Assembly: GCA_000381585.1 (NCBI GenBank)
Contig: KB906734.1
Coordinates: forward strand, 868,001-932,000
Direction of reading: 5' to 3'
DNA: 64,000 nucleotides
From: Acidobacteriaceae bacterium KBS 83
GTDB taxonomy: Bacteria; Acidobacteriota; Terriglobia; Terriglobales; Acidobacteriaceae
Made by a program: the position numbers and the translations under genes. Below are positions 13,434 through 31,659 of this stretch, piece by piece (the first letter of the stretch is position 1; each line of letters opens with the position of its first letter). A model generated the notes under the pieces. It searched no databases, had not been told where the DNA came from, and worked only from the letters and a program-made list of their open reading frames with translations.

Positions 13434-14261
13434 ATGAACCTGCCCGAAGGTCACGGGTCTGTCGTCGGCTACATCTCACCCCTCGGCCTTCCTGCTGCCT
13501 CGCAATCGCTAGAGGCATTTGGCGTGAAGTTCTCGCCCGGCGGGGCGCACATAAGCCGGACCCTGATGCTGGCTGAACTTTGTGCAGTCCTAACCAAGGT
13601 GCCACGATTGTCTGACCCCGCTGCTTACCGTGAGGCAATTCTCCAGAGGAACGTTCTGGGGAAAGCGACGGACAGCAACCGCCACAAGACACTGCGACAC
13701 TTGCGAGAACTGTATGCGCTTGATGAGGGCACCCCCATCTTTGCGGTGCTTCGCAAGCTTCACCAAATGGATGCCACGAGCCTTCCGCTACTGGCCTTGC
13801 AAGTGGCCTGGGCCAGAGATCCACTCTTGAGAGCCTCAACTCCGCCGGTAATCGATGCAGCAGAAGGCGACCGAATCGAAACGGCCAGCCTCGCGAAAGC
13901 GGTGGAAACTGCATTTCCTAATCTATATTCGGTCTTGAACCAAAATAAGATTGCCCGGAATGCCGCCTCGTCGTGGACCCAATCAGGGCACCTCACAGGT
14001 CGTGGGAGGAAGACTCGTCAAAAGATCAAGCCGACAGCTACAGCGGTCACCATGGCGCTGATTTTCGGAGAAATCGCCGGATACCATGGCGCGGAGGTCT
14101 TTTCGAATCCATGGTGCCGCCTCCTCGATTTACTCCCAGGTCGGGCCAAGGCAATGGGCTTCGAGGCCCATCGGATTGGGCTGCTGAACCTGCGCGCCAT
14201 TGGTGAGGTCGTTGAATTGACGTTTCCACTCTTCGCCGAATTCGCGAGTAAGCAACTATGA
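13434..14261 (+). CDS. brxA: BrxA-like protein (DUF1819), first gene of the BREX operon
   Basis: A 275-residue frame from ATG 13434. The frame extends to a GTG at 13362, and a GTG at 13524 just before KFSPGGAHISRTLMLAEL is also possible. That last segment looks like the start of the conserved domain (compare the family's GG..xxxS..LAEL opening). The rest is helical and Leu/Arg-rich (RHKTLRHLRELYALDEGTPI) with a basic stretch TGRGRKTRQKIKPT consistent with DNA binding. BrxA is a small DNA-binding protein of BREX; in type 1 it precedes BrxB, as here. The stop overlaps the brxB start by 4 nt (ATGA). The identification rests strongly on gene order; sequence similarity by eye is moderate. Confidence 0.68.
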   Translation: MNLPEGHGSVVGYISPLGLPAASQSLEAFGVKFSPGGAHISRTLMLAELCAVLTKVPRLSDPAAYREAILQRNVLGKATDSNRHKTLRHLRELYALDEGTPIFAVLRKLHQMDATSLPLLALQVAWARDPLLRASTPPVIDAAEGDRIETASLAKAVETAFPNLYSVLNQNKIARNAASSWTQSGHLTGRGRKTRQKIKPTATAVTMALIFGEIAGYHGAEVFSNPWCRLLDLLPGRAKAMGFEAHRIGLLNLRAIGEVVELTFPLFAEFASKQL

Positions 14262-14815
14262 GCGCTGTAGACCATCTGTTCTCAAACTACTCCCGCCAGG
14301 TGCGTCTGCCTTGGTCAAGCAGCATGTCGGGCAAACAGAGGGTCTGGTTTGCGGTATACCCGCCGTGGGAAGAGAGGCGCGTGCGCGCACGTCTTCCACA
14401 GTTCGAAGCCGTGACCCTTGCCGCGAGTCACGGGTGGACGACCGTTGACCTCACCCGTCTTGTTCCCGACTTCCTGGCCGCTCACCCATACCGGGAGCAA
14501 GTCTTTCAACAACCCCAACATTTACGTGCGGGAAACGCTCTCGAAAAGCGCGCCGCAGCTCTGGTTAGAGAGGCATGCTCTGCCGAAGAGGCGACAGCCA
14601 GTAGTGTTGTTGCGGTTACAGGCCTTGCTTCTCTGTTCGACTTTATGCGGGTGTCCAGCCTGATTGAAGCCGCCGAAGACAGCATTTCCGGACGTTTACT
14701 TGTATTTTTCCCCGGTGAATATGCCGGAAATGTCTATCGCTTTATGGACGCGCGCGATGGATTTAACTACATGGCTGTTCCCATCACCTCAACGGAGAGC
14801 TTCATCAATCCATGA
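14258..14815 (+). CDS. brxB: BrxB, BREX protein (DUF1788)
   Basis: A 185-residue protein. The C-terminal segment GRLLVFFPGEYAGNVYRF, then DARDGFNYMAVPI, is the characteristic DUF1788 signature, in which a short nucleotide-binding-like strand is followed by PGxYxGNxYRxxDxxDGxNYxAxPI. BrxB is required for defence in type 1 BREX systems but its biochemical role is not settled; it is cytoplasmic. The gene overlaps both neighbours by 4 nt (ATGA), pointing to translational coupling with brxA and brxC. Confidence 0.85.
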   Translation: MSAVDHLFSNYSRQVRLPWSSSMSGKQRVWFAVYPPWEERRVRARLPQFEAVTLAASHGWTTVDLTRLVPDFLAAHPYREQVFQQPQHLRAGNALEKRAAALVREACSAEEATASSVVAVTGLASLFDFMRVSSLIEAAEDSISGRLLVFFPGEYAGNVYRFMDARDGFNYMAVPITSTESFINP

Positions 14816-17800
14816 TTAATCGTGACCTTTACTCCCGCGACCCTACTACCATCGAGCTTCTCAATAACGGCGTATCAAAGGTCTCGGAGTTCGGGGATGA
14901 TGAACGTCAACTTCGTACCCTGAGGTTCGAACTTGAGTCCTTTGTCTGCGACGGTGAATACGCCCGTGGAATGGAGCGGATCCTCAAAGCATATCTCGAC
15001 GGACTCGGGCGAGAAGAACAGAAGGCCGTATGGGTCAGCGGTTTCTTTGGCAGCGGCAAGTCGCATCTCGTCAAGGTGCTCCGATATCTCTGGACGGACT
15101 ATCGTTTCCCAGACGGAGCCGCCGCACGGTCGCTCGTAAAAGTGCCGGCTGAGATTGCTGACCTCCTGAAGGAACTGTCGACGCGAAGCAAGCCATTGGG
15201 AGGTCTGCGCGCGGCCGCGGGGACTCTTGGTGCAGGCTCCATGGACAACGTCCGGCTTGCTTTCGTGCAGCTCATCCTACGGTCTGCAGATCTTCCAGAA
15301 GATCTAGCCCATGCGAAATTCGTCCTCTGGCTGAAATCGTCTGGGCTTGAGGCAACGGTCGTTGAGGCGCTGAAAAAAAGGAATTGCGACTTGCTGGAAG
15401 AGGTAGTGCACCTCAACTACTCTGTGTCACTCGCTGAGGCGATCCTCGAAGCCGAACCTAAATACGGAACTGTAGCCAACGTCCAGGAGTGGATGCGCGT
15501 CGGCTTTCCCGAGATTACATCTCCTACCATTGCGCAAGCACTGGACTTCATCAAACAGATCTTCGGTGAGAAAAACAACCTCGCATGCACACTGCTGGTG
15601 GTCGACGAGGTTCAGCAGTTCATTGGGGAGAAAATCCAGCGCGCGATGGATGTGCAGGAGATCGCCGAGCATTGCTGCACGGAGTTGAAGCAGCGTCTTC
15701 TATTGATCGGCACTGGTCAGTCTGCTTTGAATACCACGCCCAGCCTACAACGGCTCCAGGCACGCTTTACCGTTCCCGTTCAACTCTCAGACACTGATGT
15801 AGAGAGTGTGATCCGCAAGACGGTTCTCCGCAAGAAGCCCGAGCGTGAATCAGTCATCTCTGAGAAGTTGCTCGCCAGCCAAGGAGAACTTGCTCGGCAC
15901 CTTCAGAACACTCGCTTTGCGGCCACACATCAAGATGATGAGTTCCTCGTCCCTGATTACCCACTTTTGCCCACCCGGCGCCGCTTTTGGGAGAAGGTGC
16001 TTCGCAATACCGACCATTCAGGCACTAAAGCGCAGCTCCGCTCGCAATTGCAGATCGTCTTCGAAGCCACGAGACAGACCGCCAAAGAATCCGTGGGAAC
16101 CGTTGTACCGGCTGATTTTATCTACGATCAAATCTCCACGGACCTGCTCAACTCCGGTGAATTAGAACGCGAGTACGACGAAATCATCCGCAAGCAACGT
16201 GATGGTTCCAAGGAAGGAGACCTCCGCTCCAGCTTATGCGCGCTGATATTTTTGATCGGCAAACTTCCCCGCACGCCAGGAGCTGACGATGGGGTTCGCG
16301 CCAATCTTGAGACGCTTGTAGACCTGCTTGTCAGCGATCTGAAAACCGATCGACCGAAGCTGGAGCAGGAAGTTCCTTCCCTGCTTAAGCAGCTCGTCGA
16401 TGCCGGCAACCTTATGGCAGTGGAATCCGAGTATCGCCTTCAAACCCGCGAAGGCGTGCTTTGGACTCACGATTTCAATCGCCGCCGCGCAGCAGTCCTG
16501 AACGATGACCAACGCATCAATTCGAAGCGTGCGGAACTGCTGCGGGATGGGGTGAAGCAGGCATTGAAGCCAGTGTCTTTACAGCAAGGCACCTCTCGGC
16601 AACCACGAAAACTGACTATTGAGCTGTCATCAAGCCGTCCACCATCTAACGGCGACGAGGTCACGCTCTGGATGCGCGAAGGATGGAGCGATGACGACAA
16701 GGCAGTCTTGAATGATGCCCGCGCCGCAGGAGTGAACAGCCCTTTACTTTTCGGTTTCCTGCCGCGGCTCCAGCACGAGGAACTGCGACAAGCAATCTCA
16801 GCTCAGGTGGCAGCACAGGAGACGCTAGACGCACAGGGTCCGGCCGCGACCTCCGAGGCTATTGAGGCCCGCAAGGCGATTGAGACGCATTTCGAAGTTG
16901 CGCGCCACCGGGCTCAAGAGTTACTTGGCCACATTATGGGGGCAGCCAAGGTCTTTTTGGGTGGCGGCCAGGAGGCAGAGGGAATCGAGTTGGCTGATAA
17001 GGTTCAGACTTCGGCCAACAGCGCCCTTGAGCGGCTGTTTCCTCAATTCTCCGAAGCAGACCATGCCAACTGGGGCCAGGTCGTCGCCCGCGCCAGGGCT
17101 GGAGACGTGGGCGCGCTCTCGCAAGTGAACTACCCCGGCGATGTCACAAAGCACCCCGTCTGCCGTCGTGTGCTCGATCAAATTGGGGCTGGAAAGAAAG
17201 GCAAGGATTTACGGGAATACTTTGGATCTGCGCCGTTTGGCTGGCCCAAGGACGCGATCGATGGTGCGCTGTACGTGATGCTGGTCGCCGGCAATCTCCG
17301 TGCGACAAACAACGGCCAGCCCGTCAACGCAACACTCCCGCAGAACCAGGTGGGTGTCGCCAACTTCTACGTGGATGTGCCGCCGCTTAATGTGCAACAA
17401 AGGCTCGATCTGAAAGCGCTCTTTCAGAAGGCCGGAATCACCACCCAGAACGGCAAGGAGTCAGAGGGGGCTGGGCAGTTCCTGCAAAAGCTCCTCTCAC
17501 TAGCGGAGTCCGCAGGCGGCGCTGCGCCGCGTCCAGAGTCCCCGAAAACGCAGGATGTGCGTGCGCTCCAGACCCAGAGCGGCAATGCGCAGTTGCTCAA
17601 GATCCACGAGCAGAAGGACACACTCGCCGCCGAGCTTGCCGTGTGGAAGAAAAACGCGGACGCCATCGCAAAACGCTGGCCCGTTTGGGAACGGCTAGTG
17701 CAGCTTCGCGACTTCGCGAAAGGTCTTCCGGAAGCCGAGGCCTGTGCGGCATCCATCGACGCAGTCACCGTCAGCCGAACGCTGCTTGCAGACCCCGACC

Positions 17801-18246
17801 CGGCACCCGACCTAACCAAGCAGCTCGTAGCGGCTCTGCGGACGGCGTTAGGAAAGTTGCAGAGCGACCTTGCCGCAGCCTTTAAGGCCGGGGAGGGGAA
17901 GCTCGCAGCCGCGCAGGGCTGGTGCAGCCTTAGTGACCAACAGCGCGCTTCCCTCACAACAGCGCATCAGCTTAACATGCCCGCCAAAGAGGCAATCGGC
18001 ACGGATGAAGAGGTCTTGTCTGCGCTCTATACAAGAACATTGGCCGACCGTCGTAACCTCCTGGACGCTGTTCCTCAGCGGTTCGCTCGTGCCCTCGAGG
18101 AGGCAAGTCGCCTCATCGAGCCCAAGGCGCAGCGCGTTGTGCTGCCTTCTGCGACTATCCACAACGCAGCCGAACTGGACGAGTGGCTCGCAGACGTGCG
18201 TAAGCAAGTGGAAGAGAAGCTGAAAGAGGGCACTGTCATTCTATGA
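14812..18246 (+). CDS. brxC: BrxC, large P-loop ATPase of BREX
   Basis: A 1144-residue protein, in the normal BrxC range of about 1200. The N-terminal INRDLYSRDPTTIELLNNGV is typical. Walker A is GFFGSGKS at residues 77-84, followed by HLVKVLRYLW. Walker B is LLVVDEVQQF near residue 262. The central part has an AAA-like arrangement including a sensor-like LLIGTGQSAL. The C-terminal third (about 840-1130) is helical and coiled-coil-like (LAAELAVWKKNADAIAKRW). BrxC is the AAA-type motor of BREX and is thought to work with PglX and PglZ. Overlaps with brxB and pglX are 4 nt each. Confidence 0.93.
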   Translation: MINRDLYSRDPTTIELLNNGVSKVSEFGDDERQLRTLRFELESFVCDGEYARGMERILKAYLDGLGREEQKAVWVSGFFGSGKSHLVKVLRYLWTDYRFPDGAAARSLVKVPAEIADLLKELSTRSKPLGGLRAAAGTLGAGSMDNVRLAFVQLILRSADLPEDLAHAKFVLWLKSSGLEATVVEALKKRNCDLLEEVVHLNYSVSLAEAILEAEPKYGTVANVQEWMRVGFPEITSPTIAQALDFIKQIFGEKNNLACTLLVVDEVQQFIGEKIQRAMDVQEIAEHCCTELKQRLLLIGTGQSALNTTPSLQRLQARFTVPVQLSDTDVESVIRKTVLRKKPERESVISEKLLASQGELARHLQNTRFAATHQDDEFLVPDYPLLPTRRRFWEKVLRNTDHSGTKAQLRSQLQIVFEATRQTAKESVGTVVPADFIYDQISTDLLNSGELEREYDEIIRKQRDGSKEGDLRSSLCALIFLIGKLPRTPGADDGVRANLETLVDLLVSDLKTDRPKLEQEVPSLLKQLVDAGNLMAVESEYRLQTREGVLWTHDFNRRRAAVLNDDQRINSKRAELLRDGVKQALKPVSLQQGTSRQPRKLTIELSSSRPPSNGDEVTLWMREGWSDDDKAVLNDARAAGVNSPLLFGFLPRLQHEELRQAISAQVAAQETLDAQGPAATSEAIEARKAIETHFEVARHRAQELLGHIMGAAKVFLGGGQEAEGIELADKVQTSANSALERLFPQFSEADHANWGQVVARARAGDVGALSQVNYPGDVTKHPVCRRVLDQIGAGKKGKDLREYFGSAPFGWPKDAIDGALYVMLVAGNLRATNNGQPVNATLPQNQVGVANFYVDVPPLNVQQRLDLKALFQKAGITTQNGKESEGAGQFLQKLLSLAESAGGAAPRPESPKTQDVRALQTQSGNAQLLKIHEQKDTLAAELAVWKKNADAIAKRWPVWERLVQLRDFAKGLPEAEACAASIDAVTVSRTLLADPDPAPDLTKQLVAALRTALGKLQSDLAAAFKAGEGKLAAAQGWCSLSDQQRASLTTAHQLNMPAKEAIGTDEEVLSALYTRTLADRRNLLDAVPQRFARALEEASRLIEPKAQRVVLPSATIHNAAELDEWLADVRKQVEEKLKEGTVIL

Positions 18247-21200
18247 GCAGTCTTCCCACCGCGCTCCGCCGACAACTAGAAAACACAGTAAAGCAGGCCC
18301 GCAAGGTGGCGACGGAGGGCGCTCGAAAGGCGCTCGAAGCGCTCGCGGTGCACGAGCCTCAACCATATGCGTATATGGATGAGGCGCGAATCGAACTGCG
18401 GCGCAAACTTCGCGCGCAGGCCAAGCAGCTTGGCGATCGGGAGACCCCGGCGCAGCCGGGCTCATGCGGAATCGAGCACCTGATCGAAAAGCTGGGCTAC
18501 GACCAATGGCATCGAGTGCTCTTTGCTCGTTTTCTCGTTGAGAACAACCTTCTCATCTCGCCCGAGCACGGAGTGCCTGTCTCGCTGGACGATTGCGAGG
18601 AGCTCGCCCCATCGCTCGGGTTGAAGGACGCGTGGGCGGTGGCGGCTCGTTTCGCCGCGAAGGAACTGCCCGAAATATTCCGCGCAGACGACCCCGCAGG
18701 GGCGGTGGAACTTCCCGCCGAAAATCGCAAGCCGCTCATCCAGCTTGTCACCGGGCTTCCGGCGGCGGTCTTCACGGCTGGCGACAGCCTGGGATGGTGC
18801 TATCAATTCTGGCAGGCGGAGCGGAAAGATGAGGTCAACGCCGCCGGCAACAAGATTGGCGCGGACGAGCTGCCGGCGGTCACGCAGTTGTTCACCGAAG
18901 ACTACATGGTGGACTTCCTGCTCGATAACACGCTGGGCGCGTGGCACGCCGGCAAGTGGCTGGCCGCGAATCCATCCGTTGCTGAGACGGCACAAAGCGA
19001 GAATGAGCTTCGTGCGGCGGTAGGGCTACCCGGATCCCCGTGGAGCTATCTGCGGTTCGTGAAGGGGGGCGACGGCAAGTGGGCACCCGCAGCAGGAATC
19101 TTCGCTGGATGGCCTAAGAGCGCTAAGGAGATAACGTGCCTCGACCCGTGCATGGGCAGCGGACACTTCGTTATAGCAATTTTTGAGCGGATGGTCGCGC
19201 TACGTATGGCGGAAGAAGCGCTGGATGAATCCGCCACGGTTGCCGCAGTCGTTCGCGACAATGTGTTCGGGCTGGAGATCGACCCGCGTTGCACCCAGAT
19301 TGCTGCGTTCAACCTGGCACTCGCGGCTTGGCGGCGCTTAGGGCATAGCCCGCTGCCCGCGATGAATCTCGCTTGCTCAGGATTGGCGCCGAATGCGAAG
19401 CCGGAGGATTGGCTGAAGCTCACGGGGGATAACGACCGCCTACGGAATGGAATGGATCGGCTCTATAGGCTATTTGAAAACGCACCGACATTAGGAAGTT
19501 TGGGCGACCCTCGAGTGTCGTCGGATCGCCTTCTAGTCGCGCCTTTTTCTGAAGTCTATCCGCTACTTGTTGACGCCCTGTCCCGTGAGACGGTGAATGG
19601 AGCCGAGCATGAATTGTCAGTTGCGGCTCGCGGATTGGCAAAGGCCGCTGCGATCATCTCGCAGCGCTTTACATTGGTCGCGACCAATGTGCCTTACCTC
19701 GGACGAAATAGACAAGATGACTCACTTAAGGAGTATTGCGAGCGAGCTCATCCGCGTGCTGCTGCCGATTTGGCCACTTGTTTCGTCGAACGTTGCGTTT
19801 GCTTCTGTGCTGCACAGGGTACCACCGTTCTTGTCACACCGCAGAACTGGCTCTTCCTGTCCTCATACCGAAGGCTTCGGGAATGGTTACTTGAGACGGT
19901 TGAGTGGAATGGGGTAGTCCGACTTGGATCAGGCGCCTTCGAAACCATAGGAGGAGAAGTCGTGAATGTCGCCTTGATTGGCCTAACTAATCGAAAGGCG
20001 TCAACGGCCAACTCCTATCTGGGTATCGATTGCGCAACCTCCCCCAGTCCAACGGCTAAAGCATCGGCGTTATCGGTCGGTCCAACTTTGCAGTTATCGC
20101 AATCCGAGCAGAGGAGAAACCCCGACAGTCGCGTAGGCCTATCAGAAGTTTCAAGTTTGCCCCTGTTAGGCATGTATGCCGACAGCTACTGGGGGCTTGG
20201 GTCTGGGGACGGAGAGCGATTCTGCTATCAATTTTGGGAAATACCAGCAGTCTCTGAGAAATGGGAAGTTCTCCAAGTCACCTTTGCTCCAGGTGGGGTC
20301 GCGGTCGGTAAAGAGCAGGTGGTGTTTTGGGAGAGAGGAAGGGGTAGCCTGTACCGGCTCGCTGAAGATTCAAAGGAGAAGCTGAAGAACATTTGGCGAA
20401 GAGGGCATGAGGCATGGGGTAAGCAGGGCGTGGCGATAAGCCAGATGGGAGGCTTGCCGGCAACCCTTTATCATGGCGAAATTTTTCAAAACGGCGTCGC
20501 TGCCATAGTTCCCAAAAATCCAGAAGATTTGGCTGCAATTTGGGCCTTCTGCTCGTCTCCAACCTTTGTTGCTGAAGTTAGGAAGATCGACCAAAAACTC
20601 GCGGTCACAAATGCAACTCTTGTGAAAATTCCATTTGATTTGGGGCACTGGCGAGAAGTCGCCAAAAGGCTAAACCCTGCAGGGCTCCCGAAGCCATTTT
20701 CCAAAGATAGCCGTCAGTGGCTCTTCAACGGCTTTCCCAAAGCTTCAGATCAACCGCTGCATGTGGCCCTGGCACGCCTGCTCGGCTACCAGTGGCCGCG
20801 CCAAAGAGGTTCAAGTTTCCCCGATTGTCCAGCGCTCGGTCCGGACGGTCTGGAAGAGCTAGCAGATCCTGACGGGATCGTCTGCCTCTCCGCTACCAAG
20901 CGCGAAGAGCCCGCTGCCGAACGTCTGCGCGGACTTCTGGCACTCGCCTGGGGCGCGGATTGGAGCGCCAGCGTGCAGCAGGAGTTGCTCACGCAGGCGG
21001 GCTACGCCGGAAAGGCGCTGGACGACTGGCTCCGTGATGGATTCTTCGAACAGCATTGCGCGCTATTCCACCAACGGCCATTCATCTGGCAAATCTGGGA
21101 CGGCCATAAGAATGGCTTCAGCGCGCTGGTGAACTACCATCAACTTACCTACGCCAATCTTGAAAAGCTCACCTACGCTTATCTCGGCGACTGGCTCCGT

Positions 21201-21617
21201 CGCCAGCAAGCATCCGTGGACGCAGGTGAGGCTGGTAGCGACGCCCGTCTTCAGGCCGCCAAACAATTGCAAGCCAAGCTTAAGCTCATCCTCGAAGGCG
21301 AACCGCCTCACGACATCTTCGTCAGGTGGAAACCGCTCGCGAAACAAGCGATCGGCTGGCATCCCGACCTCAACGACGGAGTGCGTATGAACATCCGGCC
21401 TTTCGCCAATGCCAATATTCTGCGAAAGAGAGTCAAGATCAAGTGGGACAAAGATCGCGGAAAAGAACCGATGCGACCGAAGGAAGAGTTCCCCTGGTTC
21501 TGGGGCTGGGATGGAAGAACCGAAGACTTCGCGGGAGTTGGCCAGAACCCGGACGGCAATCGCTGGAACGACTGCCACTACACCAATGAGTTCAAACGGA
21601 AGTCGAGGAACGCGTAA
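18243..21617 (+). CDS. pglX: PglX, BREX adenine-specific DNA methyltransferase
   Basis: A 1124-residue N6-adenine methyltransferase that marks host DNA in BREX. SAM-binding motif I is DPCMGSGHF at about residues 300-308. The catalytic motif IV is NVPY at 482-485, in the place where many amino-methylases have NPPY. The N-terminal 300 residues are helical and specific to PglX. The segment after motif IV, about residues 560-820, should hold the target-recognition part; it is encoded by visibly more A/T-rich sequence than either flank, as if exchanged. The C-terminus (about 860-1120) is again GC-rich and PglX-typical. It overlaps brxC by 4 nt and is followed 3 nt later by an unusual DUF932 gene. 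No homopolymer tract suggesting phase variation is seen in the frame. Confidence 0.93.
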   Translation: MSSLPTALRRQLENTVKQARKVATEGARKALEALAVHEPQPYAYMDEARIELRRKLRAQAKQLGDRETPAQPGSCGIEHLIEKLGYDQWHRVLFARFLVENNLLISPEHGVPVSLDDCEELAPSLGLKDAWAVAARFAAKELPEIFRADDPAGAVELPAENRKPLIQLVTGLPAAVFTAGDSLGWCYQFWQAERKDEVNAAGNKIGADELPAVTQLFTEDYMVDFLLDNTLGAWHAGKWLAANPSVAETAQSENELRAAVGLPGSPWSYLRFVKGGDGKWAPAAGIFAGWPKSAKEITCLDPCMGSGHFVIAIFERMVALRMAEEALDESATVAAVVRDNVFGLEIDPRCTQIAAFNLALAAWRRLGHSPLPAMNLACSGLAPNAKPEDWLKLTGDNDRLRNGMDRLYRLFENAPTLGSLGDPRVSSDRLLVAPFSEVYPLLVDALSRETVNGAEHELSVAARGLAKAAAIISQRFTLVATNVPYLGRNRQDDSLKEYCERAHPRAAADLATCFVERCVCFCAAQGTTVLVTPQNWLFLSSYRRLREWLLETVEWNGVVRLGSGAFETIGGEVVNVALIGLTNRKASTANSYLGIDCATSPSPTAKASALSVGPTLQLSQSEQRRNPDSRVGLSEVSSLPLLGMYADSYWGLGSGDGERFCYQFWEIPAVSEKWEVLQVTFAPGGVAVGKEQVVFWERGRGSLYRLAEDSKEKLKNIWRRGHEAWGKQGVAISQMGGLPATLYHGEIFQNGVAAIVPKNPEDLAAIWAFCSSPTFVAEVRKIDQKLAVTNATLVKIPFDLGHWREVAKRLNPAGLPKPFSKDSRQWLFNGFPKASDQPLHVALARLLGYQWPRQRGSSFPDCPALGPDGLEELADPDGIVCLSATKREEPAAERLRGLLALAWGADWSASVQQELLTQAGYAGKALDDWLRDGFFEQHCALFHQRPFIWQIWDGHKNGFSALVNYHQLTYANLEKLTYAYLGDWLRRQQASVDAGEAGSDARLQAAKQLQAKLKLILEGEPPHDIFVRWKPLAKQAIGWHPDLNDGVRMNIRPFANANILRKRVKIKWDKDRGKEPMRPKEEFPWFWGWDGRTEDFAGVGQNPDGNRWNDCHYTNEFKRKSRNA

Positions 21618-21620
21618 CCG

Positions 21621-22601
21621 ATGCCCGCCAACGTACAAACAATGGCCTTTTACGGTGACGTTCCCTGGCACGAGATCGGTACCCAGGTACCGCAGGATGT
21701 GACGGCAGAAGAGATGATCCGCGCAGCGGGGATGGATTGGTACGTCGAAGTCCGGCCAGCTCGAGGCGCGAAGCAGATTAATCGTCAGGGTGAGTATTCC
21801 CGGTATGAGGTCGTTCGCGTGCCTCGACCGCAGACTGAGGAGTCGGAAGTGCTGCTCGGTGTGGTCGGTCGTAGGTATCAACCCCTACAGAACGTCGATG
21901 CGTTCGATTTCTTTGATCCTATAGTCGGCCAACACAAGGCCCACTTCGAGACCGCAGGTGTGCTCGGACAAGGCGAGCGAATCTGGGTGATGGCTCGGAT
22001 GCCGGGAGCCATGGAAGTGGTGAAGGGTGATGACTGTCTGAAATATCTTCTCCTCTCCAACACGCATACGGGAGAGGGTTCAGTGATCGCGAAGTTCACC
22101 TCAATACGTGTGGTGTGCCAGAACACCTTGATGATGGCGATGGACGACGGGCAGAAGGTGTACCGCGTCCGACACAGCAAGAAGATGCAATTCAAGCTGG
22201 ACGAACTCTCCGACTTCCTGGCGATCACGCAGAAGGTGTTCCTGAAGGCTGAGGAGAGCTTCCGCCGCCTCGCCAAGACCGAGATGAATGAGAAGCGCCT
22301 GGAGACATATCTTGAAGCAGTGTTTCCGCGCAGCGAGGCACAGAAGAAAAAAGGTGAGGAACCGGCGCGCTGGAAGTCTTTGCGAGAGCTATTCGACGGA
22401 ACACCCGATCTCCAAGTACCAGGCGTTCGAGGGACGATGTGGGCCGCCTACAACGCCGTTACGCGTTTTGAGGATTACAAGCAACCGCAGCAGGACGAAC
22501 AGCCAGACCAACGTTTAGAGCGGATGTGGTTTGGCGGAGGAGCTGAAATCAAGTTGGTCGCCCTTATGAAAGCAACAGAGCTATCTGCAAGCTGGAACTG
22601 A
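21621..22601 (+). CDS. DUF932 (phage/plasmid-like) protein embedded in the BREX operon
   Basis: A 326-residue protein of the DUF932/TIGR03299 type. The hallmarks are DVPWHEIGTQVPQDVTAEEM near the N-terminus, VVGRRYQPLQNVDAFDFFDP, and SIRVVCQNTLMMAM in the middle. Members are widespread on phages and plasmids and have no settled biochemical function. Here the gene lies 3 nt after pglX and about 48 nt before pglZ on the same strand, so it is surely co-transcribed with BREX. That position is not part of the textbook six-gene type 1 set. It could be an accessory factor (for example a modulator of modification or a DNA-binding helper) or a hitch-hiker. A Lys/Glu-rich stretch (SEAQKKKGEEPARWK) near residue 240 may be a flexible linker. 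Confidence 0.85.
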   Translation: MPANVQTMAFYGDVPWHEIGTQVPQDVTAEEMIRAAGMDWYVEVRPARGAKQINRQGEYSRYEVVRVPRPQTEESEVLLGVVGRRYQPLQNVDAFDFFDPIVGQHKAHFETAGVLGQGERIWVMARMPGAMEVVKGDDCLKYLLLSNTHTGEGSVIAKFTSIRVVCQNTLMMAMDDGQKVYRVRHSKKMQFKLDELSDFLAITQKVFLKAEESFRRLAKTEMNEKRLETYLEAVFPRSEAQKKKGEEPARWKSLRELFDGTPDLQVPGVRGTMWAAYNAVTRFEDYKQPQQDEQPDQRLERMWFGGGAEIKLVALMKATELSASWN

Positions 22602-22648
22602 AGCGCAGCGAGAGACGAGCCGTGTATCACTTCGGTCGGGAAAGTGTC

Positions 22649-24973
22649 ATGAGTCAGACCTTCGGAGAATCACTATCTGCCACACTCAGAGCTGCCGCAC
22701 AGGCGTACGCTATCGGTGACCAGGTTGCGCCTTGTGCGGTCCTGTGGGTCGATCCCGAGCGGCAATGGGAAAGCCTCGTGCCGGAATTACAGCCGATGCT
22801 GCCGGAGTTGTTCACCCTCGGCAGTTATGCACCTGAGCAGCGAAGAGGGCCGGCGTTGTGGCTGCGTTGCATCGAGGCGCGAGTTGTAGCAGGTGCGCCG
22901 CCCAACGGATGCGCTCCGATCTTCTACTTACCCGGCGTCAGCCAAGAGAAGCTGCGGGTCGCGGAGGATTGCCCGCCGGAACTAACGCCCCTTGTTGAGC
23001 TACAGTACCGGGGCATGATGTGGTTGCATGCATCTGGCAAGGAGTGGACGCCCTATTCCTTTTTGGTTTCGAAACAGGACGGACTGGGGCTAGACGTGGC
23101 CAAAAACCAGGCGACGCGTGACGCGCTGCTCGGTGCTCTCCCGTCACTCATGACGGAACAGCTCTCCTACTTGCAGGGCCGGCGTTTGGATTCAGAGTTC
23201 TTCAACGGGCTCGTGGCGCCGGATGCTACTGGCTTACTGCTGCGCTGGCTCACCGATCCAGAGACTTTCAAACAGCGCCGCTCAGACGCGGAATGGAAGG
23301 CTTTTTGCGGGGAATGCAAGGCGGACTTCCGCTTCGATCCGTCGAGCGAAGGTCCCCTGGAGGCGGCGAGGCAATTAGCTAGCCGAGGCGCATCCTGGAA
23401 TTTGGTATGGAAGCGTTTTGCCGAATCTCCAGCCACCTATCCAGGCGTTGTTGAATGGCTGAAAAGGGCTGCACCGAAAAAGCCAACGATGTTCGATTCC
23501 GCTGAGGTGTGGCCAACTCTCAACGAACGCGAAGAGAGGGAGTTGCAGCAGGCTCTGGAGTCACTCGTCGATAGTCCGCAGGATGAGGTTATCGGACGAG
23601 TCAACGAACTCGAAGCGCAACACGCAAGCCGGCGCTCCTACCCATGGCAAAAGATAGGACTCAGTCCATTTGCGACAGCGCTTGAGCCGCTAGCGCAACT
23701 TGCCAGCTTATGCGGGATTACTCCTGGCGCACCGACAGCCGATGCGTATGGAGCATTCTATGCCAGCGACGGTTGGCGCGCGGACGCCGCCGCCCTTGAC
23801 ACAATGGCGGCGTGCGAGGCGTTAGAGCACCATGGTGCCGTGTTGGCGACTATACGGGCTGTCTATCTCCCCTGGCTCGAAAGCACCTCTCGTCAGCTTC
23901 AACAGCTTGTCAGTAACGATCAAATTTCTATTTCCAAACGCGCGAAGCCGATAGCAACCACTCCGGGGCGGATCATCTTGTTTGCCGACGGACTGCGAAT
24001 GGACGTTGCCCAGAAGTTAGCGAAGAAGCTTGCGGGCGCCGCGCTTGAATGCACCCAGGACTGGCAGTGGTCCACTATTCCTTCGGTGACCGCGACGGCC
24101 AAGCCGGCGATGTCTCCGATTGCTGATAAGGTGGAGGGCGGTCAAACAGGGGAGGATTTTTCGACAAGGCTTACTTCGACGGGCCAGACCCTCACACAGG
24201 ACCGTTTTTTGAACGTATTAGAAGGACTCGGATGGCAATATCTAAGGGCTAGCGAAATTGGGGATGCGTCACTTCCGGCCTGGACGGAGGGCGGAACGAT
24301 CGATAGGCGTGGACACAACGAAGGCTGGAAGCTTGCCCTTAGCGTAGAGGCCGAGGTGCGAGAACTTTGCAGTCGAATTAGCGCCCTCTTGAGAGGCGGC
24401 TGGAACGAGGTGATTGTTGTAACTGATCACGGGTGGCTACTTATCCCGGATGGTCTTGAGAAAGTCGAGCTCAAACACTTCTTAGCGGTCAATCGTTGGG
24501 GGCGATGTGCGGTTCTGAGAGCTGGTGCGCAAACCGATCTGCCCACATACAAGTGGCAGTGGAACGCGGAGGTCGCGATCTCAACTCCGCCGGGCGCGGG
24601 ATGCTTCCGTGCATCGACAGAGTATTCTCATGGTGGAATTTCGCTTCAGGAGATGGTGATTCCCGTCCTTCGGGTGACCGCAGTGGCTTCCAAAGGCGGC
24701 TTGGCTTCGATTGCCGAAGCGAAGTGGACGGGAGCGCGATGCAGGATTCTTGTATCTGGCGAGTACAGTGGAACTCGTGTGGATGTTCGCAGAGAGTCTT
24801 CCGATGCGACGAGCTCATTGCTGGCGGACAGGCAAACGCGCGAGATTACAGACGACGGCAGAGTCACGGTCTTCCTGGAAGATGATTCTGATATTGGCAA
24901 ACAGGCGGTCATCGTTCTGCTTGACACATCGGGGCAGGTCATCGATGCCCTGCAGACGAGAATCGGAGATTGA
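22649..24973 (+). CDS. pglZ: PglZ, BREX alkaline-phosphatase-superfamily protein
   Basis: The start at ATG 22649 is preferred over GTG 22622 because GGGA lies 7 nt before it; this gives 774 residues. The PglZ domain is in the C-terminal half. FADGLRMDVAQKL (Asp 447) is the metal-binding/nucleophile strand, and VTDHGWLL (Asp 593, His 594) is the second metal motif of the alkaline phosphatase fold. A late His (STEYSHGGISLQEMVIPVL) is the third. PglZ has been shown in other systems to have nuclease or phosphodiesterase-like activity and is essential for BREX defence. The N-terminal half is more variable. It resembles the PglZ variant annotated as type B more than the Streptomyces one, but I cannot be sure by eye. 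Confidence 0.9.
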   Translation: MSQTFGESLSATLRAAAQAYAIGDQVAPCAVLWVDPERQWESLVPELQPMLPELFTLGSYAPEQRRGPALWLRCIEARVVAGAPPNGCAPIFYLPGVSQEKLRVAEDCPPELTPLVELQYRGMMWLHASGKEWTPYSFLVSKQDGLGLDVAKNQATRDALLGALPSLMTEQLSYLQGRRLDSEFFNGLVAPDATGLLLRWLTDPETFKQRRSDAEWKAFCGECKADFRFDPSSEGPLEAARQLASRGASWNLVWKRFAESPATYPGVVEWLKRAAPKKPTMFDSAEVWPTLNEREERELQQALESLVDSPQDEVIGRVNELEAQHASRRSYPWQKIGLSPFATALEPLAQLASLCGITPGAPTADAYGAFYASDGWRADAAALDTMAACEALEHHGAVLATIRAVYLPWLESTSRQLQQLVSNDQISISKRAKPIATTPGRIILFADGLRMDVAQKLAKKLAGAALECTQDWQWSTIPSVTATAKPAMSPIADKVEGGQTGEDFSTRLTSTGQTLTQDRFLNVLEGLGWQYLRASEIGDASLPAWTEGGTIDRRGHNEGWKLALSVEAEVRELCSRISALLRGGWNEVIVVTDHGWLLIPDGLEKVELKHFLAVNRWGRCAVLRAGAQTDLPTYKWQWNAEVAISTPPGAGCFRASTEYSHGGISLQEMVIPVLRVTAVASKGGLASIAEAKWTGARCRILVSGEYSGTRVDVRRESSDATSSLLADRQTREITDDGRVTVFLEDDSDIGKQAVIVLLDTSGQVIDALQTRIGD

Positions 24974-24977
24974 CTGA

Positions 24978-27029
24978 ATGGGCGAGGAGATGGATGCAAT
25001 CGACCAGATTGCGACCAGGGCTTTTGAAGGGTACGTCGTACGCAAGGACCTCGTCCGTAAGTTTAAAGGTCAGTACCCGGTGCCTACTTATGTCGCTGAG
25101 TTCCTTCTGGGTCGCTACTGCGCCTCTGTGGATGATGAGGAGATCTCTGATGGACTGAAGATCGTCGAACGTCAGTTAAGCGAGAAGACAGTTCGGGCAG
25201 GAGAGCACGAGTTATTTAAGGCGCGCGCTAAAGATAAGGGGCACGTCAAGCTCATCGACGTCATTACTGCGCGGCTTGACGCTGGGAGCGATTCGTTTCT
25301 GGCGACGCTGCCGAGTCTGCAACTCAAAGACGTTCGTATCGATGAAAAGTTGGTTCATGCAAATGAGCGAATGCTTACAGGCGGCTTTTATGCCGAAGTG
25401 GAGCTCGCCTACGATCCCATGATCGCAGCCGAGAAGAACGGACGTCCATTTGGCATCGAATCACTTCGCGAAATTCAGCTTTCGAAGCGGGAGGTATTGC
25501 CCGCGCTATATCAGGGGCGCGAGGCATTTTCAGTACAGGAGTGGAAGCTCTTTCTTATACGGAGCGTCGGCATCGAGCCGGAGCAGCTATCCGCCCGTGC
25601 GCGCGACATGATGTTGCTACGAATGGTTCCGTTTGTAGAACGCAATTACAACCTGGTAGAACTCGGACCGCGAGGGACAGGCAAGAGCCACCTTTTTCAG
25701 CAGGTCTCGCCTTACGCCCACCTAATCTCCGGCGGGAAAGCCACGGTCGCGCGGATGTTCGTCAACAATGCGAACGGGCAACGCGGGCTGGTATGTCAAT
25801 ACGATGTTGTCTGCTTCGACGAAATCTCCGGCGTCTCCTTTGATCAGAAGGATGGCGTGAACATCATGAAGGGCTATATGGAGTCGGGTGAGTTCAGCCG
25901 GGGGAAAGAGAGCATTCGCGCCGATGGCGGGATCGTTATGGTGGGGAACTTCGACATTGACGTGCAACATCAACAGCGAGTGGGCCATCTGTTCGGCCCG
26001 CTGCCGCCCGAAATGCGTGACGACACTGCTTTAATGGACCGCATTCATGTGTATTTGCCCGGATGGGATCTGCCGAAAGTCAGGCGCGAGTTCCTCACTG
26101 ATCATTTCGGGCTGGTGAGCGATTTCCTCTCTGAATGCTGGAACCAATTACGGCGCCAGAGCCGGCAAGGCGTCCTTCAGGGGAGGGCGCACTTGGGCGG
26201 CGCGCTGAGTGGCCGCGACACCACGGCAGTCCAGAAAACCGTGAGCGGGCTCATCAAACTTGTATCCCCAAACTTGGAAATGCAGGTTTCTGACGAGGTG
26301 TTGGAGTGGGCGCTTCGCATCGCCCTGGAGTGCCGCAGACGGGTAAAGGAACAGCAGAAAAGAATCGGGTCCGCGGAATTCCGGAATACTCAATTCAGTT
26401 ACTCGCTGGGTGAGGACGGCGTGGAGAAGTTCGTCGCTACACCTGAGCTCTACAGTGAGAACAGCATCGGCAGCGATCCGCTGCCCCCAGGACAAGCCTG
26501 GATCATTTCGCCTGGTGGCGGAGACGAAAATCCGGGACTGTATCAGGTAAACATCACGGAAGGACCGGGCAACGGCGTGAAGATCCTCAACCAGCCGGCT
26601 CCCGCATCCTTTAAAGAGAGTGTGCGGTGCGCGGAGCAGAACCTTTATGCGCGGTCTGTGGAACTCATCGGCGATCGTGATCCGCGTCAGCATGAGTTCT
26701 CGGTACAGTTAAGAGCTTTCGATAGCCCGAAAGGGGGATCGGCAACAGGTGTGGGTGTGCTGATTGCTCTGTGCTCTTCACTGTTGCAGAAAAGCATCCG
26801 AGGAGGTCTTGCCATTGCGGGAGGCCTAAACTTGGGAGGGTCGATAGAACCGATATTCAGCCCCGTGCACGTCGTGGAGATTGCGATCGAGAAGGGTGCA
26901 GGGAGCATTCTGATGCCGATCAACAGCCGGCGTCAATTGAACGATCTGCCAGATGACTTGGCAGCGAAGATTACCATCCACTACTACCTCGATACGCGCG
27001 ATGCTTTATTAAAGGCCCTTATGGTCTAA
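24978..27029 (+). CDS. brxL: BrxL, AAA+ / Lon-like protein of BREX
   Basis: A 683-residue protein, last gene of the operon. Walker A is GPRGTGKS at 230-237 and Walker B is VVCFDEI near residue 278-284. Arginine-finger-type residues follow around DRIHVYLPGWDLPKVR. The C-terminal domain (about 540-683) is Lon-protease-like: DSPKGGSATGVGVLIALCSS has Ser 588 where Lon has its nucleophile, followed by GGLAIAGGLNLGGSIEPIF. I do not see a Lys in the place of the Lon catalytic Lys, so protease activity is doubtful. BrxL assembles as a DNA-bound AAA+ ring and is needed for phage defence in type 1 BREX. The start 4 nt after pglZ has a GGAG 9 nt upstream. Confidence 0.92.
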   Translation: MGEEMDAIDQIATRAFEGYVVRKDLVRKFKGQYPVPTYVAEFLLGRYCASVDDEEISDGLKIVERQLSEKTVRAGEHELFKARAKDKGHVKLIDVITARLDAGSDSFLATLPSLQLKDVRIDEKLVHANERMLTGGFYAEVELAYDPMIAAEKNGRPFGIESLREIQLSKREVLPALYQGREAFSVQEWKLFLIRSVGIEPEQLSARARDMMLLRMVPFVERNYNLVELGPRGTGKSHLFQQVSPYAHLISGGKATVARMFVNNANGQRGLVCQYDVVCFDEISGVSFDQKDGVNIMKGYMESGEFSRGKESIRADGGIVMVGNFDIDVQHQQRVGHLFGPLPPEMRDDTALMDRIHVYLPGWDLPKVRREFLTDHFGLVSDFLSECWNQLRRQSRQGVLQGRAHLGGALSGRDTTAVQKTVSGLIKLVSPNLEMQVSDEVLEWALRIALECRRRVKEQQKRIGSAEFRNTQFSYSLGEDGVEKFVATPELYSENSIGSDPLPPGQAWIISPGGGDENPGLYQVNITEGPGNGVKILNQPAPASFKESVRCAEQNLYARSVELIGDRDPRQHEFSVQLRAFDSPKGGSATGVGVLIALCSSLLQKSIRGGLAIAGGLNLGGSIEPIFSPVHVVEIAIEKGAGSILMPINSRRQLNDLPDDLAAKITIHYYLDTRDALLKALMV

Positions 27030-27432: not shown

Positions 27433-27864
27433 TCAATTCGGCACTCCCATGGGAATCGCGTGGTCGAGTTTGGGCTTGAGCAGCATACCGTAGACAAGCC
27501 CATCCGCGAAGAAGAAGCCAGCCTCCTTGAGTAGTGCCTCGAATGTCCGCAGTGTGCATGGGACTTCATCACGCGATACCTGGAACTCGCAGAAGTCGCG
27601 CCACAACGCACCGATGCCGCCGAAGCAGCGGTCTCTGAAGACACAGCGCGAGAGCGCCCAGCGGTGGAAGTCTTCCGCCCATGCCGTCGAGTCATGGATT
27701 GCCATGCCAGAGGCGGCGCACGAAATAATGGGAAGCTGCCCCGAGTGCGAACCGACAAAACTGACAGAACTCGGTTTTGTCGGTTTTGTCGGTTCTGCTT
27801 TTGGGTGTTCCTCCATTATTTCTTTGCCGGGAGTCCAATTGCGCCAATAGTCAATGCTTCGCAT
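27433..27864 (-). CDS. Small island protein with TKP repeats and conserved Cys/Phe-rich core
   Basis: A 143-residue frame that overlaps the end of the upstream DUF3987 gene by 14 nt. Residues 20-40 are low-complexity (EPTKPTKPSSVSFVGSHSG). Residues about 60-135 form the core, with WALSRCVFRDRCFGGIGALW, then DFCEFQVSRDEVPC and EALLKEAGFFFADGLVYGML. The pairing of a P-T-K-P/F-V-G linker with this core, directly after a DUF3987 gene, is something I associate with acidobacterial integrative elements. I know of no assigned function. The start is uncertain (residue 17 or 54 are other Met choices). It is the last gene of the minus-strand module. Confidence 0.65.
   Translation of the reverse strand: MRSIDYWRNWTPGKEIMEEHPKAEPTKPTKPSSVSFVGSHSGQLPIISCAASGMAIHDSTAWAEDFHRWALSRCVFRDRCFGGIGALWRDFCEFQVSRDEVPCTLRTFEALLKEAGFFFADGLVYGMLLKPKLDHAIPMGVPN
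27749..27795. repeat. One arm pairing with two tandem copies (alternative hairpins)
   Basis: ACCGACAAAAC (27751-27761) is the perfect complement of GTTTTGTCGGT at 27774-27784. The longer GAACCGACAAAAC (27749-27761) is the perfect complement of a second copy, GTTTTGTCGGTTC, at 27783-27795. Two exclusive hairpins are therefore possible. The sequence lies inside the coding part for the TKP linker, so it may be just a coding repeat. Confidence 0.4.
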
Positions 27865-29443
27865 GCGTGGCCTCCTTTAGGCGCGGATTGATGCTGAAAC
27901 TTTCGGATGGTCTACCCGGCACCGGGTCATGTCCCTCACGCCGTATCCAAGCCGCCTCCTCCAGCAATAAAAGGGCGGCGCGGGACTCTTCCGGAGTGCC
28001 GAGACCTGTCCAACCGTTGCGGTAGACGTCCCGCAGAGCGAAGTGTCCTTCGTCACGCTTCCAGCCGGTGACCAGCTTGCGTGACAGCGTGATGGCGGCC
28101 AACTGTGCAGGGTTGATACGGGAGGCATATATCCGATTTGCGTGAGCTTCCAGATACCCACACCAGTCGGCGGCAAGCTGCGCGTGGTGCAGATCGACGG
28201 CGTGAAGCACACCATCGGCCAGAGAGAACAACAGCGCGAGCGAGGGCATCAGGCTCCTGAACTTCGCAAGATGAGCTTTCATAACGGGCGGAAGATCGTC
28301 ACCGCAGAGACGAGCCTCAAGTAAACGGAGCCACCCTTGAAACAGTGCTTGTGCATCAGGCGTGAATTTAAGGATCAACGGGCATTCAGAATCCATCTGC
28401 GCGATCGTTCGGTACACCCTGTTCACCCGCTCGATAGCTTTATGGTTGGGAAGCCTGTCGATATACCGCCAATCCCGGGTAGAGTCCGGGTAAATAAGCA
28501 ACTGAAATCGCTGCATTAGCCCATCGTTACCGGGGCCGTCCTTCAGTACATCGGCGAGATAAGAGCGAAGCCGCGCGGGCGGGATGCCGCCGAGAATCGA
28601 CACGCAACACGCCGGCACGTGGACGCTACCGCGCCCGATGCGGTCAATCGTGTGGCCTGTATCGCCGTTCCACGCCGAAAGGAAAAACTCGCGCTCACCT
28701 TCTCGACCTTGTTTTTCTAAGGTGGAGAACCACCCTGAAAGCTCATCCCGAATCACAAGGACGCCGGCAGGATTATTATGCAGAATTTCGTGCAACTTCT
28801 CCGGTGTTGCATCCTGGGTAATCAGACGGCAAAGTTTCGGCTGGGCGATCGAGTCGTCAGGGCGCAACGGCGGCTCGATGCCCTTCTTGACGGCTGCCGT
28901 ATAGAGTTGCTTCCACGCTCCTTCCCTCAGCTCCTGCTGCTCTTTCTCCGATTTGTAGCTAGCAAGCGCACTTTCGTACTCGACCCGCCAGAGGCCCTCG
29001 ATCATCGCTAGCGGCTTGGTCATAGCCGCAATCAGCGGCGACTTAAGGCAACCCGGCTCCGCAACAATGCCGCCCCATAGGTTAGGAACAACGGTCCAAG
29101 TGGTATCAGCTTCTTTCGGCTGGATCCGCGCCCTGCGACCGGTCACTCCGGCCAACGAAAGGACAGAGACGACGGCGGCAAAGTCAAGGGGCGTCTGCAT
29201 TCGCTCGCTCACGTCCTCCACGAGTAGGCGAAGGACTTCCGGCAGCAGCCCCGCGTCGAACGCTGGAACGTTAGGAAGCTCCGTACCGAGTGATTCCGGC
29301 ACCGGCCAGCCTTGGTATATGTCTTCTCCAGCGAGGATGCGTGGCGCATCCTGCACCAGACTGACAAGGTCATCGACCGTGGTATTGGCGTATGGATTGG
29401 ACTGCGGCGGGTAGCAATCGACAATGGCGCGTGGTTCACTCAT
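27851..29443 (-). CDS. DUF3987 ATPase/helicase-like protein
   Basis: A 530-residue protein of the DUF3987 family, found in phages, satellites and integrative elements next to primase genes. A Walker-A-like loop AEPGCLKS is at residues 128-135, following VVPNLWGGIV. Later VLVIRDELSGWFSTLEKQGR supplies the Walker-B-like acid (RDE). NGDTGHTIDRIGRGSVHVPA, then VSILGGIPPARL, follows, all typical of the family. It is thought to act as a replicative helicase-like partner of the element's primase. The start overlaps the primase-like gene by 4 nt (ATGA), and the end overlaps the small TKP protein gene. Confidence 0.85.
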   Translation of the reverse strand: MSEPRAIVDCYPPQSNPYANTTVDDLVSLVQDAPRILAGEDIYQGWPVPESLGTELPNVPAFDAGLLPEVLRLLVEDVSERMQTPLDFAAVVSVLSLAGVTGRRARIQPKEADTTWTVVPNLWGGIVAEPGCLKSPLIAAMTKPLAMIEGLWRVEYESALASYKSEKEQQELREGAWKQLYTAAVKKGIEPPLRPDDSIAQPKLCRLITQDATPEKLHEILHNNPAGVLVIRDELSGWFSTLEKQGREGEREFFLSAWNGDTGHTIDRIGRGSVHVPACCVSILGGIPPARLRSYLADVLKDGPGNDGLMQRFQLLIYPDSTRDWRYIDRLPNHKAIERVNRVYRTIAQMDSECPLILKFTPDAQALFQGWLRLLEARLCGDDLPPVMKAHLAKFRSLMPSLALLFSLADGVLHAVDLHHAQLAADWCGYLEAHANRIYASRINPAQLAAITLSRKLVTGWKRDEGHFALRDVYRNGWTGLGTPEESRAALLLLEEAAWIRREGHDPVPGRPSESFSINPRLKEATHAKH

Positions 29444-29898
29444 CGGGTCACCTTCGCTTCCGTTTGCCGGATCTTGTTCAATGCCTCGTGGAGGAGTTGC
29501 GCAACCGCATCGGCATCCGGACCATCTGGATCGTTCGCAAGCCGTGAACCTAACTCATCCGTGATGGCGTGAAGCTCGCGAAGTCGATCAAACGACGCCC
29601 GCTCAACTGCACGCAGCCGTTGCTGGCGTAGCTCTCGCTCTTGGCATTCCACCGCGGCTTTCCGAGCCTGTTCCGGCGTCATTGGCGAGCCGCAGATGTC
29701 TGTCCATCTGAGTCCGAGCGTGTGCAACACATCTGCTGTTTCGCAGCCGGCAAAGCAAGTCAAGAGAACTCTTCCATCTCTACCAGTGCCGATGGAGAGC
29801 GACGGCGAGCGGTCAGGGTGCGCCGGACACTTCGCCAGCCATCGAGCATCGCCGATGCGCCTCGCGTGGAGCACGTCGGCGATTTGCTCCGCGGTCAT
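29440..29898 (-). CDS. Primase-like protein with CHC2-type zinc finger
   Basis: A 152-residue protein. Zinc ligands are Cys 24, His 27, Cys 48 and Cys 52 (CPAHPDRSPSLSI and LLTCFAGC), the pattern of the DnaG/P4-alpha primase zinc ribbon that reads the template. The TOPRIM catalytic domain is missing. Residues 75-150 are instead a charged helix (RKAAVECQERELRQQRLRAV). It is therefore only the recognition half of a primase, or works with the DUF3987 partner encoded immediately downstream (4-nt overlap). Such split primases are common in acidobacterial and actinobacterial elements. Confidence 0.8.
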   Translation of the reverse strand: MTAEQIADVLHARRIGDARWLAKCPAHPDRSPSLSIGTGRDGRVLLTCFAGCETADVLHTLGLRWTDICGSPMTPEQARKAAVECQERELRQQRLRAVERASFDRLRELHAITDELGSRLANDPDGPDADAVAQLLHEALNKIRQTEAKVTR

Positions 29899-30110
29899 TG
29901 CGCACCGCCCCGAGATGCATCCACGCGCTCACTAATCCAGTCCGCAACTTCGCTATCGAGCCACGCGACAGCACGCGCTCCCAGGCTGATTGGTGCGGGG
30001 AATTCGCCGCGCTGAATTTTCGCGTAGAGAGAGGAGCGCGAAAGACCGACGCGCTGTTTGACTTCGGGGAGGCGGAGGAGATGAGTGGGATTTTCGGACG
30101 TTGCGGCCAT
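29895..30110 (-). CDS. AlpA-family helix-turn-helix regulator/excisionase-like protein
   Basis: A 71-residue protein. HLLRLPEVKQRVGLSRSSLY, then AKIQRGEFPAPISLGARAVAW, is the MerR-like winged HTH of AlpA/excisionase proteins, ending with the typical DSEVADWISERV helix. In P4-type elements AlpA controls integrase expression and excision. It opens the minus-strand operon with the primase-like gene (4-nt overlap) and lies 250 bp from the integrase stop, on the same strand. The intergenic stretch 30111-30359 should hold its promoter. Confidence 0.85.
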   Translation of the reverse strand: MAATSENPTHLLRLPEVKQRVGLSRSSLYAKIQRGEFPAPISLGARAVAWLDSEVADWISERVDASRGGAQ

Positions 30111-30359
30111 AGGCCCTCCAACGATTCAGCAAAAGGAAGCTGAACTCATGTTGTCGGGCGGACACCGAATCGCCTCAAGCGAGGGCCGATGTCCAAATCC
30201 TACGCGCCTAGATTGTCCGGATCACGTTCGCGCCTTGTCGCTAGTTCCCGCGAATATTTACGGGGGGCCGGCATTCGAAGATCGGAGCAGTCACTTCGAA
30301 GACGATTCTGAAAGTTCTTATCGGATATGTCAAGCTGTCACCGTCTCTCCTCGGAAGGT

Positions 30360-31562: not shown

Positions 31563-31576
31563 TCTGTCCCTTCTCG

Positions 31577-31659
31577 TATGTCTCCAGACCCAACTGTGGG
31601 CGGATTTCACCACTGGAGACATGCAGGAGACATATTGCCTGTCGGCTATCTATGTCTCC
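31577..31659. repeat. GGAGACATA repeats at the right island end (probable arm sites and integrase promoter)
   Basis: On the plus strand GGAGACAT occurs at 31615-31622 and GGAGACATA at 31626-31634, starts 11 bp apart as at the left island end. Inverted copies (TATGTCTCC) lie at 31577-31585 and 31651-31659. All lie between the integrase start and the att core at 31748. Confidence 0.7.

Follow-up and report, generated by a model that had tools for sequence, protein, structure and literature searches.

The StySA BREX locus of Salmonella has an indel between pglX and pglZ that carries an ATPase gene and a DUF4435 gene, and in the accessible part of the published account deletion of either gene left methylation unchanged (PMC9009780). 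Auxiliary effectors of BREX have been catalogued in a 2026 survey (PMC12839542); DUF932 is not among them in the accessible text of that survey, supplementary files aside. The same text counts Hma among the BREX-related systems that centre on DUF499 (PMC12839542). A literature search yielded no paper that names both DUF932 and BREX, 11 that mention DUF932, PF06067 or TIGR03299 though never in title or abstract, and no described function.

A type-1 BREX operon, complete and with a PglZ of type B, occupies positions 13362-27029 of the window, a stretch of 64,000 nucleotides of contig KB906734.1 from Acidobacteriaceae bacterium KBS 83. All genes are on the plus strand with overlaps or short gaps, in the order BrxA, BrxB, BrxC, PglX, DUF932, PglZ and BrxL. 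BrxA (13362-14261; PADLOC BrxA, 1.5e-76) and BrxB (14258-14815; Pfam BrxB, 8.1e-8; PADLOC, 9.2e-60) are followed by the BrxC ATPase (14812-18246; NF033441, 729.6 bits) and by PglX, an adenine methyltransferase with an Eco57I methylase domain (18243-21617; PADLOC PglX, 1469.5 bits). At the distal end are PglZ (22649-24973), which scores 850.5 bits against the type-B model NF033450 (BREX_PglZ_1_B; cut-off 400), and BrxL (24978-27029; BrxL_ATPase, 5.7e-127; PADLOC, 953.1 bits). By these profile matches the system is BREX type 1B, with the six core genes together in one operon.

The gene between pglX and pglZ (21621-22601, plus strand) is an intact open reading frame of 326 amino acids, and the first-pass annotation, which had placed a DUF932 gene there within a BREX operon and on the same strand, is borne out. 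The protein matches PF06067 at 183.2 bits (cut-off 23; E 8.5e-54), TIGR03299 at 248.6 bits (cut-off 110.7) and phrog_1221 at E 6.2e-67; it belongs to the DUF932/TIGR03299 family, as the curated cut-offs are passed over most of the model length. A chance or mis-annotated reading frame is ruled out by the Pfam and TIGR03299 matches. No PADLOC family matched the protein, no other Pfam domain was found at E ≤ 0.001 and no nuclease domain was recognised; the Pfam domains of the known BREX auxiliary nucleases (GmrSD, TOPRIM/OLD, Schlafen, HEPN, PD-(D/E)XK) are absent from it. The operon copy is the single DUF932 match in the 6.25-Mb genome, and its G+C content (0.561) is similar to that of its neighbours (0.556-0.579).

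Between the pglX stop codon, whose last base is 21617, and the DUF932 start codon (ATG at 21621) lie 3 nt, as previously given. The gap to pglZ is short, as had also been claimed, and measures 47 nt rather than 48. This figure takes ATG 22649 as the pglZ start and not the in-frame GTG 22622; the closest relative, at locus L123, starts at the equivalent ATG. A further claim was that the gene must be expressed with BREX. A simple scan of 21400-22900 found no promoter-like site (0.5 in shuffles), hence none between pglX and DUF932, and two terminator-like sites (shuffles 1.3, sd 1.3), a result that fits co-transcription with BREX rather than proving it.

On the minus strand downstream, a gene for a DUF3987 protein (27851-29443; Pfam DUF3987, 8.7e-76) adjoins the operon, and a tyrosine integrase gene lies at 30360-31622 (Pfam Phage_integrase, 3.7e-17; Arm-DNA-bind_3, 6e-21). 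Both are possibly part of an element that carries the BREX operon. The same two gene kinds as at 27851-31622 are present in CP4-57 of Escherichia coli (yfjI, which is DUF3987, and intA), together with a DUF932 gene, yfjQ. Upstream of the operon, positions 11465-12022 encode a 185-amino-acid protein with a weak match to DNA/RNA non-specific endonucleases, under the Pfam cut-off.

The first-pass annotation had asked whether DUF932 recurs between pglX and pglZ across genomes, and it does. Type-B PglZ was sought in three phylum samples: 396 genomes for the phylum of the window, 395 for that of a Geobacter locus (L033) and 398 for that of locus L053, titled Betaproteobacteria. Matches over the cut-off numbered 13, 13 and 4, giving 30 loci; of the 1189 genomes, 27 have at least one. 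A DUF932 gene is found directly 5′ of pglZ in three of the 30: the window, L033 in Geobacter sp. UBA5735 (G396) and L205 in genome G784. The window and L033 had been selected for carrying DUF932; the rest of the survey gave L205 and, elsewhere than in the slot, genome G1173. Position and orientation are identical at the three loci, where the gaps to pglZ are 47 nt, about 7 nt and 3 nt, respectively. At L033 and L205, unlike the window, other genes stand between pglX and DUF932. The count rests on no less than 1.5 kb of sequence 5′ of each pglZ, or on the sequence to the contig end where that came sooner (about 0.8 kb at L165 and 1.2 kb at L204). Near weaker PglZ matches, of other types, no DUF932 was found in the loci fetched, with up to 1.5 kb read on each side and with a few matches lacking a locus.

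The remaining 27 of the 30 type-1B loci have no DUF932 directly upstream of pglZ. At L123 (genome G062), whose PglZ is the closest to that of the window (64% identity), the pglX stop overlaps the pglZ start and no gene lies between them. Only the C-terminal part of pglX was found there (residues 621-1122 of the window's protein), with no match to the rest in the 1.2 kb to the contig start, so that this BREX copy may be incomplete. The slot is also empty at L124, L126 and L202. DUF932 is thus optional in type-1B BREX, which does not need it, since 27 of 30 loci do without it at that spot; a core component of BREX is ruled out on the same count. Of the fixed place in the operon suggested earlier, the recurrence stands, by separate recruitment as described below, and the fixedness does not, the closest relative being among the loci that lack the gene.

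A further measure of association excludes the window's genome and G396. Among the eight other DUF932 genes in genomes with an over-cut-off type-1B PglZ, two have a pglZ no more than 20 kb away (P about 0.003, a value resting on an assumed 1% chance per gene). The other six are in G756, G482 and G905 or are the second copy of G784. PglZ-bearing genomes with DUF932 elsewhere are G756, G482, G905, G435, G443 and G1214.

The history of the slot was read from two trees. In a DUF932 tree of 98 rows, the genes of the window, L033 and L205 form one clade (support 100/96, with the bootstrap not fully settled); four sequences were left out, two for an internal stop (L062, L076) and two for a length below 250 amino acids (L092, L110). 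In the PglZ tree, which covers 29 of the 30 type-1B loci (at L132, PglZ was not recovered by ORF calling), the same three loci represent three separate lineages, each beside sisters that are free of DUF932 (L123; L122; L203 with L204). Forcing the three PglZ proteins into one clade costs 1022 log-likelihood units and is rejected (p-AU 2.9e-6). Pairwise identities among the three loci are 58-70% for DUF932, 38-39% for PglZ and 66-71% for BrxL; between the window and L033, PglX is 48% and BrxC 39% identical. One DUF932 clade against three PglZ lineages shows, at the level of these trees, that the slot directly upstream of pglZ took up one DUF932 lineage about three times by separate recruitment. 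A single ancestral insertion followed by losses is ruled out when the PglZ tree is set against the DUF932 tree.

The pglX-pglZ junction is a cargo site for varied genes. Where slot genes were scanned with Pfam and PADLOC, they include GmrSD (L033), a Schlafen-HATPase (L122, L125, L127, L128), a Ppl-like ATPase (L122, L125, L127) and Fic (L130); an AAA and DUF4276 pair, PADLOC HEC-01, occurs at the non-1B BREX locus L029. Weaker assignments, by blastp only, are Ppl-like at L131 (where pglX is outside the stretch), L132, L200 and L201, and AAA-like at L194 and L199. A Ppl-like ATPase adjoining a Schlafen-HATPase recurs in the type-1B slot, at L122, L125 and L127 by Pfam/PADLOC and at L200 and L201 by blastp only, and the two apparently constitute a two-gene cargo module. 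The slot of L205 (4190-9030, genome G784) holds, upstream of DUF932, genes for a metallophosphoesterase and a 1192-amino-acid AAA_27 ATPase, a pair that we take to resemble SbcCD.

DUF932 is also found in other defence settings. TIGR03299 is above its cut-off in eight of the 396 genomes of the window's phylum, i.e., the window, G349, two genomes with Hma operons and four others; at these last four, no BREX, Hma or GmrSD match was present in the stretches read. In the Hma operons (L149 and L151), DUF932 lies between hmaA and hmaB, on a tree branch distant from that of the BREX-1B genes. Both operons (L149, 5917-19899; L151, 736-12000), in two genomes of this phylum sample, contain a GmrSD_N gene in addition to DUF932. 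Downstream of the non-1B BREX of G349 (L029), a GmrSD_N gene is followed by DUF932. It is 2.3 kb upstream of brxA at L242 (G1173) and 1.9 kb upstream of brxA at L068, at a contig end. Gene calls were longest open reading frames, which are wrong in places, and brxA of L068 was placed by a tblastn match, the called frame being on the wrong strand. No small genes common to L068 and L242 were detected upstream of brxA at E 1e-3. GmrSD genes occur in or next to the system at L033, L029, L149, L151 and L242 (L149 and L242 by similarity only).

At three further loci a methylase-like gene is followed by a helicase-like gene and then by DUF932. Two of these (L037 and L048) are in the same genome and the third (L047) is titled Chloroflexi. 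The three DUF932 proteins are 60-64% identical, and the methylase-like proteins of L037 and L048 are 26% alike over 364 amino acids, with neither matching that of L047. The helicase of L048 was called from a 42-amino-acid similarity to that of L037, and the methylases of L037 and L048 from a motif and their similarity to each other. Judged by these similarities, related DUF932 proteins are found beside different partner pairs, a pattern of swapping as in BREX. The DUF932 of G443, 69% identical to that of L037, has no methylase-helicase-like neighbours. At L036 (11068-12195; titled Verrucomicrobia), DUF932 is followed after about 108 nt by a DndC-like gene; no DndC adjoined DUF932 in the nine genomes first searched, and among 18 more that of L036 has DndC at the neighbour's place. 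Overall, DUF932 stands at recognisable defence genes in six of 80 named genome loci (L033 and L068, both BREX, and L037, L048, L047 and L036), a lower bound, as contigs are often short and non-1B BREX types were represented by one protein set only. Most of the DUF932 genes seen are not near recognisable defence genes.

The family at large was said to be usual on phages and plasmids, and this agrees with a tblastn search that found relatives in 507 of 50,697 phage records and 114 of 72,556 plasmid records. By tblastn, the phage and plasmid copies that rank best are about 33% identical to the window protein, and all are under 60%. In several Streptomyces plasmid records (H4, H21, H33, H35-H40), DUF932 is about 1-3 kb from the record end. 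Neighbours were taken as the 117 nearest same-strand reading frames less than 1 kb away and under 1300 amino acids, 94 of which were scanned; near-duplicate genomes and some others had been dropped by hand, and counts are per family and not traced to members. They include SSB (6), YqaJ (3), RadC (2), DNA ligase (2), ResIII (2) and RecT (1), as well as response regulators (3), radical-SAM proteins (2) and many single families; a neighbour at L035 resembles a beta clamp. Most of the named neighbours are DNA replication or recombination genes. Four phage neighbourhoods offered no clear partner, and a phmmer search of one neighbour from L048 and one from L092 against PDB found nothing.

Eight residues (W16, G20, G113, G118, T160, R163, C166 and N168) are invariant in 58 aligned DUF932 sequences, phage and BREX copies included. 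As copies from BREX, Hma, plasmids and viruses all retain these residues, a core activity is probably common to the family. The AlphaFold2 model of the window protein has a mean pLDDT of 90 and a pTM of 0.80. Foldseek found no match to it in PDB at E ≤ 0.001, and the best VIA Z score was 4.6, a level that unrelated folds also reach; these results apply equally to the comparison with recombination and annealing proteins (RecT, Erf, Rad52-like). A profile search of PDB sequences returned chance-level matches only. Many of the viral models matched at E ≤ 0.001 are unnamed; those with telling names are DUF932/TIGR03299, except for one DUF945 and one putative alpha/beta hydrolase. As no solved structure clearly resembles the fold, DNA binding is proposed through guilt by association.

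Since the position recurs by separate recruitment, an accessory role of DUF932 in modification-based defence is likely. To a fuller proposal we give an even chance: that DUF932 is an optional accessory of type-1B BREX, acting on DNA and added as an extra layer to defence that works by modification. As the trees show, one lineage of this phage and plasmid family entered the cargo slot between pglX and pglZ about three times, each time immediately 5′ of pglZ. Its product would act on DNA, presumably with the core chemistry of its phage and plasmid relatives, to which the invariant residues point. It may work downstream of or beside BREX recognition, as a further layer of defence or in handling DNA from PglZ and other nucleases, while BREX methylation would proceed without need for it. 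Related DUF932 proteins could have a corresponding job in Hma and in other methylase-helicase systems.

Another account is that BREX and DUF932 both travel on mobile islands and that the gene came to rest where an insertion did no harm, with no joint work. DUF932 is a typical mobile-element gene, an integrase gene and a DUF3987 gene adjoin the window operon, and many different genes occupy the slot; such genes can be independent systems with nothing but a promoter in common, which counts against a working link to BREX. A mere passenger is nevertheless unlikely when one sub-lineage has been taken up three times at the same spot near pglZ and in the same orientation, with the frame intact and the core residues kept, and when separate recruitment into Hma operons is added. 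About equally doubtful is the idea of a tamed anti-restriction protein. Phage and plasmid DUF932 would shield entering DNA from methylase-helicase restriction, and the operon copy would be a brake on BREX self-damage or an aid to movement of the element. The relatives in 507 phage records, the location near record ends in Streptomyces plasmids and the core residues common to phage and BREX copies are consistent with this, as is CP4-57, where yfjQ is in the same element as the putative antirestriction gene lfgA, yet also with the anti-phage genes abpA and abpB. On the other hand, the identified slot occupants of other type-1B loci look like defence modules and not inhibitors, and 27 of the 30 systems do without DUF932 at that place.

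The first-pass annotation had held that a fixed place would tie the family to BREX modification or to an accessory role, and of these it is the accessory role that is likely. A subunit of BREX modification, or a specificity helper, would suit a gene that starts 3 nt after pglX, and nothing else found links DUF932 to modification. It is absent at this place from most type-1B loci, the closest relative included, and is separated from pglX by other genes at L033 and L205; the Salmonella slot genes, in the accessible part of that account, were without effect on methylation (PMC9009780). A modification subunit is accordingly most improbable.

The tie of DUF932 is wider than BREX, because Hma and methylase-helicase-like operons carry it as well. 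A broad and quite tentative suggestion, which we hold to be a minority possibility, is that DUF932 serves as a general partner which moves among systems that defend by marking self DNA (BREX-1B, Hma, type-III-like methylase-helicase systems and possibly phosphorothioate or DndC-linked ones), sensing or holding the DNA state that these create, and that the phage copies interfere with that step or help the phage to survive it. DUF932 is present in hundreds of sequenced phages, and its recruitment to the BREX slot and to Hma and methylase-helicase-like operons provides a testable setting for it, i.e., interplay with self-marking defence.

Compared with described BREX systems of type 1 with a type-B PglZ, the window has the same six core genes in one operon and differs by the DUF932 gene in the pglX-pglZ slot. 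BrxU (a GmrSD protein of pEFER) and the ATPase-DUF4435 genes of StySA are likewise accessory genes inside a BREX locus, as far as the accessible parts of the two accounts describe them (PMC8565348, PMC9009780), but they have no Pfam domain in common with DUF932. Hma likewise hosts DUF932, at L149 and L151, but its core genes differ and its DUF932 branch is distant. With respect to the phage and plasmid family TIGR03299/phrog_1221, the window protein is a full-length member with the core residues, but one that resides in a chromosomal defence operon.
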